Of a stretch of DNA of 54,429 nt, positions 5,468 through 54,429 are shown piece by piece. Origin of the DNA: a virus; the IMG/VR virus record IMGVR_UViG_3300009788_000023, positions 1 through 54,429 of that record, one strand, 5' to 3'. Made by a program: the position numbers and the translations under genes. Each line of letters starts with the position of its first letter. The first letter of the stretch is position 1. Under the pieces are notes generated by a model. The model worked only from the letters and a program-made list of their open reading frames with translations. It was not told where the DNA came from and did no database searches.

Positions 5468-5956
5468 TCATCCTTTCAAAGTTTCTGCTGCGGTTATAGC
5501 TACTGCAAGAGCACTCCAAACGTCCTTAGAGACTCCATACAACGGCCCGGGCTGGGCTTTGGTCCCGATCTGCGGAGTCTTTCCCCCGCCCGTAGCTGGA
5601 TACCTGTCGATTATCGCCTGCCTGACATTGCCATCCTTGGCCCTTGTATTGTGGCAAAGGTGCATTTTAACGTCCATGCGGTAGATTTTCTTCCATTTTC
5701 TATCATCACGACCTGCCCATGCCTGAATAAATCTCCCTATCCAGACGCAGGTTTCAAACACTGTTTTGCCGACGGCCATGCCATAAGATGCTATCATTTC
5801 AATTGCGAAGAAATCGACCGTTGCATGAGTTAGTGTTAACTTAAAAGCTAAGTCTTCGTTATCTACTATACCCTTAGCGGTAATCTTCTTTGTTTCTGAG
5901 TTATAAGTGACAAAGGCCGACTTCTCGCTTCCTGGGTCAATCGCCAGTATTATCAT
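5468..5956 (-). CDS. RuvC-like Holliday junction resolvase
   Basis: 162 aa. The RNase H-like core is readable: LAIDPGSEKSA (Asp7), an FFAIEM strand ending in Glu53, and a KDVWSALAVA helix (Asp145), which supply the acidic triad expected for RuvC-family resolvases. The ATG at 5956 overlaps the upstream stop and follows GAAGGGAG, so it is preferred to the longer start at 5983. It probably resolves branched DNA made by the phage recombination module before packaging. It could also be a RuvC-fold nuclease with another substrate. Confidence 0.75.
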   Translation of the reverse strand: MIILAIDPGSEKSAFVTYNSETKKITAKGIVDNEDLAFKLTLTHATVDFFAIEMIASYGMAVGKTVFETCVWIGRFIQAWAGRDDRKWKKIYRMDVKMHLCHNTRAKDGNVRQAIIDRYPATGGGKTPQIGTKAQPGPLYGVSKDVWSALAVAITAAETLKG

Positions 5957-6402
5957 AACAGACTCCCTTCTTTCATATTCCATAATTGCCTAACTATCAG
6001 TTTCCGGCCGTACAGTTCCGAGCACAATTTGCGCATCCTCTGCGATTCAACCTCAAGTTCCTGGACAGGCCACGGTTTTTTCCCGCCGGCAGGGCTGAAG
6101 CTGAGTACATAAGCGATATCCTCGGGATCGAAAAGCTCGTAATCCGGAATCGGGTCTTTCTTCTCGGTTGTCTTGAATACTTTTTTAATACTAAACCACC
6201 GCAAAATCTTATTAATAGGCGGCTGCTTGTAATTGATGGTCTGCTCACAGAACCACTCATTCAGGGCTTCTTTGGCTTTGTGGTAGTCGTATCGCTTGAG
6301 TTTGCGGCTCCAGAGGCCGTACTGGGCGTCCGTAGGCTCCCAGCCCTGCCACAAGCCTTGCAGTTGCGAAGATATGAAGTTTTGGGCTTCGATTTCAGTC
6401 AT
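5953..6402 (-). CDS. Hypothetical replication-region protein
   Basis: 149 aa. The N-terminal ~60 residues (helical, W-rich, with KLKRYDYHKAKEALNEWF) resemble in style the small helicase-loader-type domains found in phage replication operons, but no defining motif is present. It lies between a truncated replisome-organizer-like protein and RuvC, which supports a DNA metabolism role. The start overlaps the upstream gene by 8 nt. Confidence 0.55.
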   Translation of the reverse strand: MTEIEAQNFISSQLQGLWQGWEPTDAQYGLWSRKLKRYDYHKAKEALNEWFCEQTINYKQPPINKILRWFSIKKVFKTTEKKDPIPDYELFDPEDIAYVLSFSPAGGKKPWPVQELEVESQRMRKLCSELYGRKLIVRQLWNMKEGSLL

Positions 6403-6601
6403 TTATAAAACCATCTATTTTCTTGCAAACTTGCTCACATTCTTTACATTGGCGGCAATGATGGCTCGTATCGCATGTTTCATCTGTGCAATGACCAATT
6501 ACGTTAGAAAAGATGTTTTCTGCGTTCAATAATAATCCTATGGCTTCACGAAAATCTTCTGTGGAACTCTCCATGGTTGCCTCAAATGTTGACTTACTCA
6601 T
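6395..6601 (-). CDS. Small Cys/His-rich protein
   Basis: 68 aa from the ATG at 6601 (ATGA overlap with the previous stop). A C-terminal cluster C-x4-C-x4-HHC-x2-C-x2-C-x3-C suggests binding of one or two zinc ions. The N-terminal half looks helical. A longer in-frame start upstream would be antisense to conserved residues of the preceding gene and is not used. Function unknown. Confidence 0.55.
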   Translation of the reverse strand: MSKSTFEATMESSTEDFREAIGLLLNAENIFSNVIGHCTDETCDTSHHCRQCKECEQVCKKIDGFIND

Positions 6602-6930
6602 AATTCCCCTTTCGCCTTCAGCCGTTCGTGCTTCTCGGCCATGGTTTCCTTGTACGTCAGTTCGTCGTCCCAGCGGCCTTGGTTCAGCCATGTGGACGGG
6701 TTCGGGATGTATTTCTTGTCTTTCCATTCCTCTGATTTTAACTGTTTTTTGAGCGCCTCTAACATTATTAAAGCTAAATTAACCTTTGAATTGATTTTAA
6801 TATAGCATTTTTTTGCATATCCCTTACCGACCTTTTTGGGATACAGCTTCCAGAACACTTTGAATGATACAGCAAGTAGCTTTTTCTTGCTCACTTCTGG
6901 CTGAAAGAATTTTAAGAAGGTCTGGGTCAT
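6598..6930 (-). CDS. C-terminal domain of a phage replication initiator/replisome organizer
   Basis: 110 aa. The FWKLYPKKVGKGYAKKC and YIPNPSTWLNQGRWDDE motifs are the signature of the C-terminal domain found in many phage replication proteins (DnaD/replisome-organizer type), which normally follow an N-terminal winged helix. Here only this domain is present; the upstream frame encodes an unrelated protein. The ATG at 6930 overlaps the preceding TAA (TAATG). It may work as a stand-alone partner of host DnaC/DnaB, or be a remnant. Confidence 0.65.
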   Translation of the reverse strand: MTQTFLKFFQPEVSKKKLLAVSFKVFWKLYPKKVGKGYAKKCYIKINSKVNLALIMLEALKKQLKSEEWKDKKYIPNPSTWLNQGRWDDELTYKETMAEKHERLKAKGEL

Positions 6931-7253
6931 TAAGGCATAAGCTTTCCACAATGCGGACAGGATTCTACTGGAATCTCTTCTGTGATTAGAATTAAATCAC
7001 TTGGGTTGAAATTGAACACTTTTTGTATCATGCCGCCTTCAAAAACCCTCGGTGTATCAAACTCAAGAATGATTCCGAGATATCCTCCGTTATTACGGAT
7101 AACTTTCCCCGTCTCTCCATAGAAAAAATGAAAATCTTGGCACGGGGTTATTACTTTTGCTTTTGCGCCGACAGGGAAATCCCCATGTTTGTTTTTCTCT
7201 GTTTTGTGCTGTTTTTTTAGTTCTTTCGACAATTCTAACATGCTTTTGCTCAT
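6930..7253 (-). CDS. Hypothetical protein with SH3-like strand pattern and C-terminal CPHCG
   Basis: 107 aa. The middle reads as a small beta-barrel: PVGAKAKVITP, GETGKVIRNNGGYLGIILEF, and PSDLILI. It ends with a single CPHCGK half-ribbon. Similar KOW/SH3-like small proteins occur in phages without known function. GAAAGAAGGTAAAA precedes the ATG. It is the first protein gene after the noncoding segment 7254-7896. Confidence 0.6.
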   Translation of the reverse strand: MSKSMLELSKELKKQHKTEKNKHGDFPVGAKAKVITPCQDFHFFYGETGKVIRNNGGYLGIILEFDTPRVFEGGMIQKVFNFNPSDLILITEEIPVESCPHCGKLMP

Positions 7254-7722
7254 TTTTACCTTCTTTCTTTTAAGACCGAGTTCCTACGCATATTAACAAT
7301 GCGCTACCAACACCTACGATATTCTCCTTGGCTATCCATAGCCCTTGCTTATGCGTTGCGGGCGGACCCGGGTACTGCATTACGGTACCGTCTCGGGATA
7401 GGTCCTCGTCGATAGCTGAGACGCTTTATCCATCCTTGGAAGTAAAAAAGGAAGGCCGAAAAAGCTTTGTGTATCATAACGGAGTAGGAGTTGCAAAAAG
7501 GTGCAGGCAGGCAGTTGGTACTGCGATTCATATGGCAAGCACTACAAGTTTGACCGCGGATTATTCTGACATTGGTGAAATCACCAAAACTACGAATCCG
7601 GTTCCTGCGCCGCTGCCTGCATAAATTATCTTGAAAAGTTCGGGGACTGGCCATAATCGTGCGCCAACACAAGCCAATCCCCATGTCACGGAAATGACAT
7701 AAATTGTCTGAAAAATTAGGTG

Positions 7723-7812
7723 CCTGGCGGGCAGAAGTTGCATCTACGACCTGTGGGTATGCCTTGCGGCAGTGACCCACCGCTCTAACTATCGCATCTG
7801 AGCTACCGCCAT
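7723..7812 (-). other. tRNA-like segment with expanded anticodon loop
   Basis: In minus orientation, tRNA landmarks appear in order: acceptor-like GGCGG, TA then GCTC...GAGC (D arm), GTGGG...CCCAC (anticodon stem), AGGTC variable loop, a T-arm GTAGA-TGCAACT-TCTGC, and CCGCCA. The anticodon loop is 18 nt and contains a TGCC-GCAA-GGCA tetraloop hairpin. It is therefore not a working standard tRNA. It may be a tRNA mimic inside the noncoding RNA, a degenerate tRNA gene, or an intron-like insertion. Confidence 0.4.
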
Positions 7813-7819
7813 AAAAAAA

Positions 7820-7890
7820 GCCCTGTGAAGAATACTGGTCAGAGAATTCCACAGAGCCTTTATAAGCACCTAATTGTATTTGACCAGTAT
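7820..7890 (-). promoter_or_regulatory. Interleaved helices: terminator-like hairpin and competing stem
   Basis: Minus strand: helix A pairs 7881-7890 with 7832-7841 (10 bp, ATACTGGTCA/TGACCAGTAT); helix B pairs 7850-7857 with 7820-7827 (GCTCTGTG/CACAGGGC, one GU), and B is followed at once by seven Us. The order A5', B5', A3', B3' makes the helices either a pseudoknot or mutually exclusive, as in a transcription attenuator. It lies only ~10-75 nt downstream of the predicted transcription start. Confidence 0.5.
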
Positions 7891-7902
7891 CCATAAGAAA
7901 CA

Positions 7903-7931
7903 ACTATATCAACCTTCCTCACATTTGTCAA
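7903..7931 (-). promoter_or_regulatory. Sigma70-type promoter
   Basis: Minus-strand TTGACA (7926-7931), 17-nt spacer, TATAGT (7903-7908). Transcription would start near 7896 and enter the noncoding segment 7254-7896 directly, with no usable ribosome-binding site before the first ATG (7894). Confidence 0.7.
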
Positions 7932-10534: not shown

Positions 10535-10609
10535 GGCGATAGGCGGGATTTGAACCCGCAACCCCCGGAATCACAGTCCGGTGCTCTAACCAGTTGAGCT
10601 ACTTTCGCC
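10535..10609 (-). tRNA. tRNA-His (GTG)
   Basis: Full cloverleaf on the minus strand: acceptor GCGAAAG/CTATCGC with one mismatch, an extra 5' G opposite C73 (the tRNA-His hallmark), D arm GCTC/GAGC, anticodon stem CCGGA/TCCGG with loop CTGTGAT (anticodon GTG), variable GGGTT, and T arm GCGGG-TTCAAAT-CCCGC. The CCA end is not encoded, so the host adds it. Confidence 0.92.
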
Positions 10610-10619
10610 ATTACAATCG

Positions 10620-10757
10620 CCCAGAAAAACACTTAGCGTCAGGTGTCGGGCTACACTTCTTAGGGACTCCCGACTCGCCCTGCCATATGGACCCGTTATC
10701 CTGATACCCCCGAGACGGGTCAACCTCGGGGCGCCAGCATATTAAATTGTCAAAGTT
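10620..10757 (-). ncRNA. Structured intergenic RNA with H-type pseudoknot
   Basis: The 250-nt gap between RecT and tRNA-His holds no gene. On the minus strand CCCCGAG (10725-10731) pairs with CTCGGGG (10708-10714), and GACCCGT (10715-10721) pairs with ACGGGTC (10690-10696). The order a, b, a', b' gives a classic H-type pseudoknot with two 7-bp stems and b directly abutting a'. A further GTCGGG/CCCGAC stem lies downstream. It may be a leader of the tRNA/lipoprotein transcript, a regulatory RNA, or protection against exonucleases. Confidence 0.5.
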
Positions 10758-10785
10758 GGGGACGGCTACGGATAAAACCGTCCCC
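10758..10785 (-). terminator. Hairpin downstream of RecT
   Basis: GGGGACGG (10758-10765) and CCGTCCCC (10778-10785) form a perfect 8-bp GC-rich stem with a 12-nt loop. The U-run beyond it on the minus strand is weak (AACTTTG), so it may be an inefficient intrinsic terminator or an RNA-processing/stability hairpin. Confidence 0.45.
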
Positions 10786-10859
10786 GGAGTCTGAAAATAT
10801 GAATCGGCCGGTGATAAAGTATCGGGCTCTGCCGGCTTACCCGTTTGAAAGGTAAATCC

Positions 10860-24591: not shown

Positions 24592-24620
24592 ATTATACCA
24601 AATACTATCAACTTTGTCAA
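24592..24620 (-). promoter_or_regulatory. Perfect sigma70 promoter
   Basis: Minus-strand TTGACA (24615-24620), 17-nt spacer, TATAAT (24592-24597). It overlaps the 3' end of the preceding coiled-coil gene and starts a separate unit of small genes (24.6-21.3 kb), with a leader of only ~20 nt. Confidence 0.88.
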
Positions 24621-49955: not shown

Positions 49956-50115
49956 TTGGGCTTTCTTCCTTTTTTGAACTCTTTTTGAAGTCGCCGAATT
50001 TACTTGCGTGTTCGACTTCGACTTCCATTTGGTCCATATATCTCCGCATTCTCGGCTTTGAATTCTTGAGCGATATCCATAGATGCCTAAAAAAAGCTTC
50101 GTTCTCGCCTGTCAT
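49915..50115 (-). CDS. Hypothetical acidic protein
   Basis: 66 aa. Basic helical N-terminus (FFRHLWISLKNSKPRMRRY) and an acidic C-terminus (SPNDNPDPDEGFDP). It overlaps the TerL C-terminal frame at 50112 by 4 nt and the Com-like gene by 41 nt, so these are tightly packed genes. Unknown function. Confidence 0.5.
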   Translation of the reverse strand: MTGENEAFFRHLWISLKNSKPRMRRYMDQMEVEVEHASKFGDFKKSSKKEESPNDNPDPDEGFDPV

Positions 50116-50873
50116 AACACTAAAATCCCTTCTTCTTTCTTTCCGAATAAACTTTCCTTGTGCTTCTGCTGTAGATATGCACAGTGAGCGGCGTGCTCAC
50201 CTTCTATGCTGAATTCCTCGACGACTTCTATTGGCCTCTGCGGCCTGAGAGAACAGCCGTACAGGGCAAGCATGGCCCCCATCACAGTATCGTCGTGGAA
50301 GCCTTCGCCACCGCCCATCTTGTCCTTATCCTCAAGATAGACGTAATTGCAAAATTCATAAATCGTGTTCTCGTCGTGGAAGATTATCTGTGGACCGTTA
50401 ATGTCCTCGGTTAATTCCTTGAAATTATTAACGAGAAGGTGCTTGTCGGTTTCGGTTGTGCAGATTCCGTATTTGCTGGACTCCGAAGGATTTTCGTCAA
50501 GCGTCTGGCGCTTCTGGTATATATTCCCGTAACCGAAATTCTCAATCGCATTATCGACGTAAGCATTGCCCGGGTACCTTGTCTCGGGTACTATGTAGGC
50601 GTTATTATAGTACCTTGCAAGGGCTACCATTACCTCGGAACCAACGACTGTTGTTGTTCTTTTATTCCAAAGCCAAGCGACCTGTTCAAAAGGAATCCTG
50701 TTGGACCAAACCTGAATCGAAGTATAGTCGGCGCCAAAGCCGGTTGCGGCATCTAAGCCAATCGTATATTTCAAACCCGGCTCTGGTTTCTTCCAAATAG
50801 TAATTAAATCTTGGCGGAACTTATCTTCCGGCTTGGCAAGTCTGAACTCGTATTTACGCTGCTTGTATTTCAC
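50112..50873 (-). CDS. Terminase large subunit, nuclease half (separate or frameshifted frame)
   Basis: 253 aa from a GTG at 50873. Carries the RNase H-like nuclease of large terminases: YTIGLDAATGFGADYTSIQVW (Asp41), VPETR (Glu97) and FHDDTVMGAMLALYG (Asp194/195). The ATPase half is encoded in the preceding frame (50854-51825), which ends 20 nt inside this one, in a different frame (+1). Joined, they would give a ~575-aa terminase. AGGA lies 7 nt before the GTG, so independent initiation is plausible; so are frameshifting or a sequencing indel. Confidence 0.8.
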   Translation of the reverse strand: MKYKQRKYEFRLAKPEDKFRQDLITIWKKPEPGLKYTIGLDAATGFGADYTSIQVWSNRIPFEQVAWLWNKRTTTVVGSEVMVALARYYNNAYIVPETRYPGNAYVDNAIENFGYGNIYQKRQTLDENPSESSKYGICTTETDKHLLVNNFKELTEDINGPQIIFHDENTIYEFCNYVYLEDKDKMGGGEGFHDDTVMGAMLALYGCSLRPQRPIEVVEEFSIEGEHAAHCAYLQQKHKESLFGKKEEGILVL

Positions 50874-51825
50874 GGAGCGTTCCTATCGAAAGCGGAATAT
50901 CATGCTTAATTCCAGACAACATCGCATTCAAAACAGGTATCTTGAAAACCGGATTGCCGCCGAAAACGATGTATTTCCCTTCGATTCGAACTTCTCTTTC
51001 ATCTTCCGGATATTTAGCGGCAGCCTTTTTAATTTCCTCAAGCGGAAGATAAGGGTTATCCCACATGGCGCCAGTGGTAACAAATACATCATCTTCTGCC
51101 ATTCGAGCTTTAAGCCAAGCGGTCCCTCGAATTGGCGTTGCTGTCATCCACCAAATACCAGCCCTATCAATTAAACGGGTCATACACTCGGTAAAGATGT
51201 CTGTTTTTGAGGGCTCTTCGTCAAACCAGATAAAATCAACTTCGTCGCCCTGAAACTTTTCACGTCCAGAATCCGATGATTTGAACTGAATCTTCCATTC
51301 CCTGTCCTCTCCTTTGATATACCAGATATTGTCTGATTTATTGAATGTGGATTCTCCGATCACCGTGTAATTACTTGGTAGTAACTTATTGAACTTCGGC
51401 AAGTTAACATCCCGGACCATATTATAGTCAAGGCCAACTATCCATCCTTTGCCTTTTTTTGGGAACTTCCTGTAAGGGTGTTTTCCGGTCAGGGCAAGAA
51501 CGCACTCGTAAGCGCCTTCGTCTGACTTGCCGATTCTGTTACCGCCAATTGCTATTCGACCTTTGTAACCACCGGCTGCCGCCAAAAATTGCCATTGCCA
51601 GCCGGGTTTGCCGTCTCTGCGATTAAAATAGGGTTCGTACTTATAGAAGAGTTCTCGGGAACGCTCAAGGAGTAGTTGCGCCCTCTGCGTGTTCTCTGGG
51701 TTCGACCGCCACTTCGGATCCTGCAAAAGCTGTCGCGTTCGTAATACACGCTCCCGCATCAAGTGAACCGGTAATTTTACGTCGTGTATTTGCATTTTCT
51801 TCGATCTCCTTGGCAGATTGCTCAT
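50854..51825 (-). CDS. Terminase large subunit, ATPase half
   Basis: 323 aa. Walker A GGNRIGKSDEG (residues 94-104), Walker B DFIWFDEEP (197-205) and a WWMTATPIRG coupling motif (~229-238) identify the packaging ATPase. The nuclease half is absent from this frame and present in 50112-50873. The ATG is at 51825 (an internal ATG at 51795 is possible), overlapping the small terminase gene by 161 nt. It should drive DNA packaging with the portal. Confidence 0.85.
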   Translation of the reverse strand: MSNLPRRSKKMQIHDVKLPVHLMRERVLRTRQLLQDPKWRSNPENTQRAQLLLERSRELFYKYEPYFNRRDGKPGWQWQFLAAAGGYKGRIAIGGNRIGKSDEGAYECVLALTGKHPYRKFPKKGKGWIVGLDYNMVRDVNLPKFNKLLPSNYTVIGESTFNKSDNIWYIKGEDREWKIQFKSSDSGREKFQGDEVDFIWFDEEPSKTDIFTECMTRLIDRAGIWWMTATPIRGTAWLKARMAEDDVFVTTGAMWDNPYLPLEEIKKAAAKYPEDEREVRIEGKYIVFGGNPVFKIPVLNAMLSGIKHDIPLSIGTLREIQAA

Positions 51826-53824: not shown

Positions 53825-54429
53825 TTATCTTCCTACCCTATCGGAAACGTTCTGCTTGGCACCCATGGTTAACTCTGTAAGATGTAAGGATTGGAGTTCG
53901 TCCCAAACGCCGTCAACGATATCGCCAATGTCGCCTGGCGTAATCGAACCACCCGCCGCGGTCGTTGCATAAGAAACGTTCCAGATAACTACCCTGTCGC
54001 CTGCGGCAAGCGGGAATGCCGTATTTGCGTCAATAGTTATTGTAAGCGAGCCGTGGACGTAATCCGTAACCCTTCTCGGGCCACTCCAAATCACGCCAGT
54101 CGTATCGAATATTGAGCAAACGGCGTTATTGATGTCGTCATTACCAGTCAAGCCTGCTGCTACCGTAAAGACTGTATCAGGCGTTGTGACTGTGGCGATA
54201 GTCGTGTCCAGGACCTTCATATCGTCCGTTACGGCCGTAATCGTGTTGATTAGGGCTACAACATCCCCTGCGGTCTGTGCGGTGCCGTTGACTTCTTTGA
54301 CGTTAACATGAAAGCCTGTCGGATCTGCTTGAGATTGCGTTTCCCATTCATTAACAATCCCTGCCGCGGTTATTGCTGAATGTGTATTAAGCTGAGAGGC
54401 ATCAATTCGGGTAGAATCGTCAACGACGG
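53825..54429 (-). CDS. Tail/baseplate-like structural protein, C-terminal part (continues from 1-835)
   Basis: This frame is the continuation of the gene starting at 835; the boundary at 54306/1 is only the circular cut. The visible C-terminal ~130 residues (from Met at 54220) include VKVLDTTIATVTTPDTVFTVAAG and end with a charged DELQSLHLTELTMGAKQNVSDRVGR. The last 123 nt duplicate the start of the window. See the 1-835 entry for repeats. Confidence 0.85.
   Translation of the reverse strand, partial: VVDDSTRIDASQLNTHSAITAAGIVNEWETQSQADPTGFHVNVKEVNGTAQTAGDVVALINTITAVTDDMKVLDTTIATVTTPDTVFTVAAGLTGNDDINNAVCSIFDTTGVIWSGPRRVTDYVHGSLTITIDANTAFPLAAGDRVVIWNVSYATTAAGGSITPGDIGDIVDGVWDELQSLHLTELTMGAKQNVSDRVGR
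54307..54429. repeat. Terminal direct repeat, copy 2 (circular-map overlap)
   Basis: Identical to bases 1-123; see the first copy. When both are collapsed the circle is 54,306 bp and the gene across the junction reads without interruption. Confidence 0.95.

Follow-up and report, generated by a model that had tools for sequence, protein, structure and literature searches.

The window analysed here, the 54,429 bases of virus record IMGVR_UViG_3300009788_000023, is a complete phage genome, since a 123-base direct terminal repeat (1-123 and 54307-54429) joins both ends. Most of the long genes of the phage are carried by the minus strand. Its terminase large subunit gene (50112-51825, minus strand) consists of two overlapping ORFs, and several kin have insertions in this gene, close to its Walker A codon (NRIGKS). 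Ordinary tRNA genes are present elsewhere in the same phage. The locus under study is a gene-free stretch flanked by genes at 8213-7944 and 7253-6930, where 650 nt of the minus strand downstream of a promoter are without a credible gene. Its features, and those of the genes below it, are as follows:

7903-7931, minus strand: extended -10 sigma70 promoter, TTGACA-N17-TATAGT with TG before the -10 box
7830-7892, minus strand: helix S1, a pseudoknot pairing 7892-7881 (GGAUACUGGUCA) with 7841-7830 in the apical loop of the T hairpin
7813-7861, minus strand: T hairpin (7861-7848/7829-7816) with U7 (7819-7813), resembling an intrinsic terminator
7714-7875, minus strand: helix C (7875-7864/7725-7714), then a U-run; closes the junction that holds the T hairpin and the tRNA-like domain
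7725-7811, minus strand: tRNA-like cloverleaf with a 6-bp acceptor stem (7811-7806/7730-7725)
7698-7714, minus strand: linker motif, first copy, UUUUCAGACAAUUUAUG
7641-7683, minus strand: 43-nt hairpin GGGGAUUGGCU/GGCCAGUCCCC, z -4.3
7620-7637, minus strand: linker motif, second copy, UUUUCAAGAUAAUUUAUG
7495-7623, minus strand: D module, with P1 (7621-7613/7510-7502), P2 (7612-7599), P3 (7524-7511) and U5 (7499-7495)
7254-7440, minus strand: structured 3' block directly ahead of the next gene, with a predicted long-range helix (7416-7407/7312-7303)
6930-7253, minus strand: first gene downstream of the RNA region, 107 aa, without a family match
6598-6951: replication-initiation-like gene, next after the gene at 6930-7253
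5468-5983: Holliday-junction resolvase-like gene, downstream of the RNA region

The promoter hexamers (TTGACA at 7931-7926, TATAGT at 7908-7903) are separated by a 17 nt spacer on the minus strand, and the near-perfect sigma70 promoter which an earlier note had placed here proved to be among the best in the genome, with a match of 11/12 and an extended -10 box. Counting both strands, the 54-kb genome contains six sigma70 sites matching at 11/12 or better, against about 1.1 expected. Near-perfect sigma70 promoters are located at 24620 (-), 20032 (-), 15714 (-), 15777 (+) and 7931 (-), most of them with TG before the -10 box, and the one at 7931 opens onto the gene-free stretch.

Two open frames run through the region, one of 184 codons on the minus strand (7903-7349) and one of 98 codons on the plus strand (7328-7624), and their being open is what speaks for a protein gene. 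That reading has next to no chance of being correct: the codon scores of the two frames (-0.17 and -0.08, respectively) are like those of antisense shadow ORFs, Pfam and PHROGs gave no family for either frame (one Pfam match lay far below the cut-off), the minus frame has no relative by phage tblastn or in viral contigs, and the frame is broken in the D-module homologue described below, where the alignment gaps of 5, 2 and 23 nt are evidence against coding as they are not multiples of three. The absence of a convincing gene, as first noted from the sequence, thus stands for both strands.

No Rfam family exceeded its gathering threshold in the RNA region. The suggestion that this could be a GOLLD or ROOL RNA is not supported: cmscan matched neither at E up to 10, and the GOLLD model (RF02032) found no match in the window genome or in the related phage G014, nor did the ROOL model (RF03087), although the latter is a weaker test because the control genomes gave no positive either. 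Likewise, no Rfam model for group I or group II introns matched within the RNA region. Another related phage (G010) contains group II intron domains (L138 1482-1789, minus strand), and as these were detected, the intron search works for the group II kind.

Over 644 nt the folding energy of the minus strand has a z of -3.6, and that of the plus strand a z of -2.2 (20 shuffles each). In a genome-wide scan with 160 nt windows the local z was ordinary in places, and the window 7401-7560 is unstructured (z +1.2). The hairpins first read at 7587-7572, 7700-7683 and 7303-7287 are present, but the best-supported structures lie elsewhere, at 7892-7881/7841-7830, 7861-7848/7829-7816, 7875-7864/7725-7714, 7683-7672/7652-7641 and 7621-7613/7510-7502. 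Four helices of 12-14 bp fall within 264 nt at the 5' end of the region, compared with a maximum of two in 2000 dinucleotide shuffles, a statistic which is somewhat post hoc because the helix-strength threshold was derived from the observed helices themselves; this count is reached in none of the other genome windows. Within the junction closed by helix C, the T hairpin and the cloverleaf arms are a few nucleotides away from the helix, and 3' of it follow, in order, the linker, the 43-nt hairpin, the second linker copy and the D module. We consider the structure of the 5' block well supported; the searches made found no homologue of its pseudoknot domain or of the 3' block at 7254-7440.

The tRNA-like domain that had been noticed here is real, as a cloverleaf descriptor run over 5.0 Mb of phage sequence matched only ordinary tRNAs and this domain (two matches were obtained in 4.35 Mb of random sequence). 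Its D arm, preceded by U8-A9, has a GCUC..GAGC stem and a 14-nt loop in which 5 inserted nt separate the two Gs, the 5-bp anticodon stem (GUGGG/CCCAC) is capped not by an anticodon loop but by 18 nt that include the hairpin UGCC-GCAA-GGCA, the variable loop is AGGUC, and the T loop is UGCAACU with one mismatch. Once the two insertions are removed, its match to phage genes for tRNA-Met and tRNA-Phe is 74-85%. It shares with phage class I tRNA genes of the Met/Phe type the cloverleaf, U8, the D arm GCUCAG..GUUAGAGC, the AGGUC variable loop and the UGCAACU T loop, but differs from them in the D-loop insertion and the GCAA hairpin, in having no 3' CCA in place and in its position within helix C. 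The stems and the T- and D-loop residues are thus canonical, whereas the 7-nt anticodon loop is missing and neither ARAGORN nor Rfam makes a tRNA call. Judged by its sequence, it is a class I tRNA with a loop insertion and a hairpin for an anticodon, and as such non-decoding; it had no homologue in the searches made. A tRNA-like domain together with pseudoknots is characteristic of tmRNA, and both are also seen here, but unlike in tmRNA the cloverleaf is contiguous and has a D stem, there is no tag frame, and neither ARAGORN nor Rfam called a tmRNA with a tag peptide.

Relatives of the RNA were reached by terminase alignment, which gave kin with up to 70% terminase identity, followed by blastn of the RNA against these kin. 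A single phage, G014, was matched, and it carries two copies of the D module:

L184 1894-2043, plus strand: D module copy, an intergenic element of about 145 nt, blastn E 5e-6
L184 13152-13000, minus strand: weaker D module copy, found with the two-sequence model, 16.3 bits, E 0.48

The module consists of a closing helix P1, hairpins P2 and P3 that are flush with P1, a variable middle and U5. In the window and in the first G014 copy P1, P2 and P3 are all paired, with two two-sided changes. Over all three copies the P1 strands are UGCAGGCAG/CUGCCUGCA, GAUGCUGGCAG/CUGCCAGCAUC and AAGACUGGCAG/CUGUCAGUCUU; in an alignment in which every row is a copy's 5' part joined to its 3' part, 94% of the cells are paired, and four of the 11 pairs have two-sided changes, versus 1.3 in shuffles (4/500 shuffles equal the count). 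The D module at 7623-7495 is therefore a homologous element with compensatory changes, and its structure is well supported; it is also the only part of the region for which the covariation called for by the earlier note was found. Both G014 copies are intergenic and point in the same direction as the genes, and in both P1 ends in U5-U6 with a start codon directly after, while in the window some 240 nt separate the module, which is behind a promoter of its own, from the downstream gene at 7253. From a reading of their translations, the genes that follow the three copies have no recognisable mutual kinship, so that no shared regulatory target is apparent.

The module is known from these three copies in two phages, the third copy being weak. 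Its model had no match up to E 1 in 1.04 Mb of other phage loci, and the queries tried against viral contigs, genomes, phages and plasmids yielded nothing further; blastn of the RNA in phages and plasmids gave nothing useful. Searches for close kin with single proteins found none, and kin at 35-40% portal identity lack the RNA both by blastn and by model. Queries with the linker motif, CCCC-AACUUU, the D-loop insertion and the P3/P1 17-mer in viral and genome collections gave matches that were judged to be chance and were mostly coding-looking, and a third D candidate in G014 (53392-53252) was rejected as it is antisense inside a gene. G014 also contains a small intergenic element (L184 1590-1643, plus strand) in which a GGUGAAAUUCC hairpin directly abuts a closing helix; this element resembles a cobalamin box yet is not an Rfam match.

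Elsewhere in the window, the minus-strand region 10609-10859, upstream of tRNA-His, is gene-free and contains the genome's only strict H-type pseudoknot (10731-10690), of which the same scan found one match in 60 random genome strands. It has the motif CCCC-AACUUU-GACAAUUUA in common with 7645-7622, and is probably another structured RNA, in this case linked to a genuine tRNA, the tRNA-His. Tested as a paralogue of the RNA described here, it had an alignment score of 48, compared with a mean of 32 for shuffles, and since other windows of the genome reach 52, kinship is not claimed.

Taken as a whole, the locus is best read as a real, previously undescribed structured phage RNA. The earlier proposal of a promoter-driven structured non-coding RNA is supported with regard to the structure, the lack of coding and the tRNA-like domain, but the region is a string of modules and not one proven RNA of 640 nt. 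From the module boundaries, the several U-runs and the unstructured part at about 7500-7440, one would expect either an RNA of some 400 nt, running from 7896 to about 7495, or a long leader of the gene at 7253.

The reading we favour, to which we give a little less than an even chance, is a modular leader or attenuator that acts in cis on the early/replication genes from 7253 downwards and incorporates a captured non-decoding tRNA. We infer transcription, termination, the cis role and the protein partner as follows. The promoter at 7931-7903 would transcribe a structured non-coding leader built of a pseudoknotted three-way junction with a degenerate tRNA, the 43-nt hairpin, the D module and the 3' block. 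Where a closing helix or hairpin ends in a U-run (7819-7813, about 7716-7712 and 7499-7495), it may serve as a regulated terminator through which the RNA would set read-through into the early/replication operon, and termination at P1 and U5 would release a short RNA of about 400 nt. The tRNA-like domain may be the binding site of a protein that handles tRNAs, such as RNase P or EF-Tu, which could then process the RNA or shift the balance of termination. A cis role is favoured because the G014 copies are intergenic, directed towards genes, end in a U-run and are followed at once by a start codon. As in attenuator- or riboswitch-type leaders, a structured RNA lies between promoter and gene, helices are followed by U-runs and, in the G014 copies, a start codon is just downstream; unlike the known leaders of this type, there is no Rfam family match here. 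Promoter-to-gene location and covarying helices, the general marks of a cis-acting leader, are both present, with the covariation confined to the D module, and no alternative fold of the antiterminator kind was identified.

Rather unlikely, by comparison with that leader, is a trans-acting ornate RNA of the GOLLD/ROOL kind, i.e. a discrete, abundant and possibly oligomeric RNA that is made during infection and is not a leader. GOLLD is induced during phage lysis and forms an RNA cage. Transfer RNAs are sometimes found inside the linker region of GOLLD, and ROOL is an ornate phage RNA of about 600 nt with pseudoknots, often near tRNAs (PMC12286853). The size, the own promoter, the dense pseudoknotted structure and the tRNA element fit such an RNA: like GOLLD (RF02032) it is a large structured phage RNA with a tRNA element, and with ROOL (RF03087) it shares the size of about 600 nt, the pseudoknots and the association with tRNA. 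It has, however, no sequence or model relationship to either, and the D module in G014 is only about 150 nt, inside operons and right before start codons. Furthermore, the RNA is smaller than GOLLD and built of modules, the conserved one being followed by a U-run, and its tRNA-like domain is not a functional tRNA; unlike in ROOL, the conserved unit is a module of about 120-150 nt.

It is quite improbable that the locus represents a new ornate RNA class in which an anticodon-less captured tRNA, held by helix C in the pseudoknotted junction, is combined with the recurring P1-P2-P3-U module; such an RNA might mimic a tRNA in trans, acting as a decoy for, or recruiting, the host's tRNA-handling factors or defence enzymes that cut tRNA. 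Decay is similarly doubtful, the region then being one without present function, in which a promoter is followed by a broken tRNA gene and by hairpins that arose by chance or are terminators. The tRNA-like part has no homologue and has lost its anticodon loop, and the phage has ordinary tRNA genes elsewhere, all of which would agree with decay, but the tRNA stems are intact with insertions confined to loops (one of which folds into a neat GCAA hairpin), the four helices are more than chance would give, and the D-module helices have been kept via compensatory changes. The replication-initiation-like and Holliday-junction resolvase-like genes close by would suit an element acting as DNA, a replication origin or recombination site with its inverted repeats as DNA hairpins. 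This is very unlikely, given the tRNA cloverleaf, the U-runs on the RNA 3' side, the sense orientation of all three D-module copies relative to genes, the two copies in different gene contexts in G014, and the better folding of the minus strand than the plus strand.

The RNA thus probably represents a phage control RNA of a new kind. Few structured RNAs of this size are known from phages, and their mechanisms are mostly unknown. A non-decoding tRNA-derived domain kept folded within a larger RNA would offer a direct route to its binding partners, and the D module, with its three copies in two phages, is a searchable family outside Rfam.
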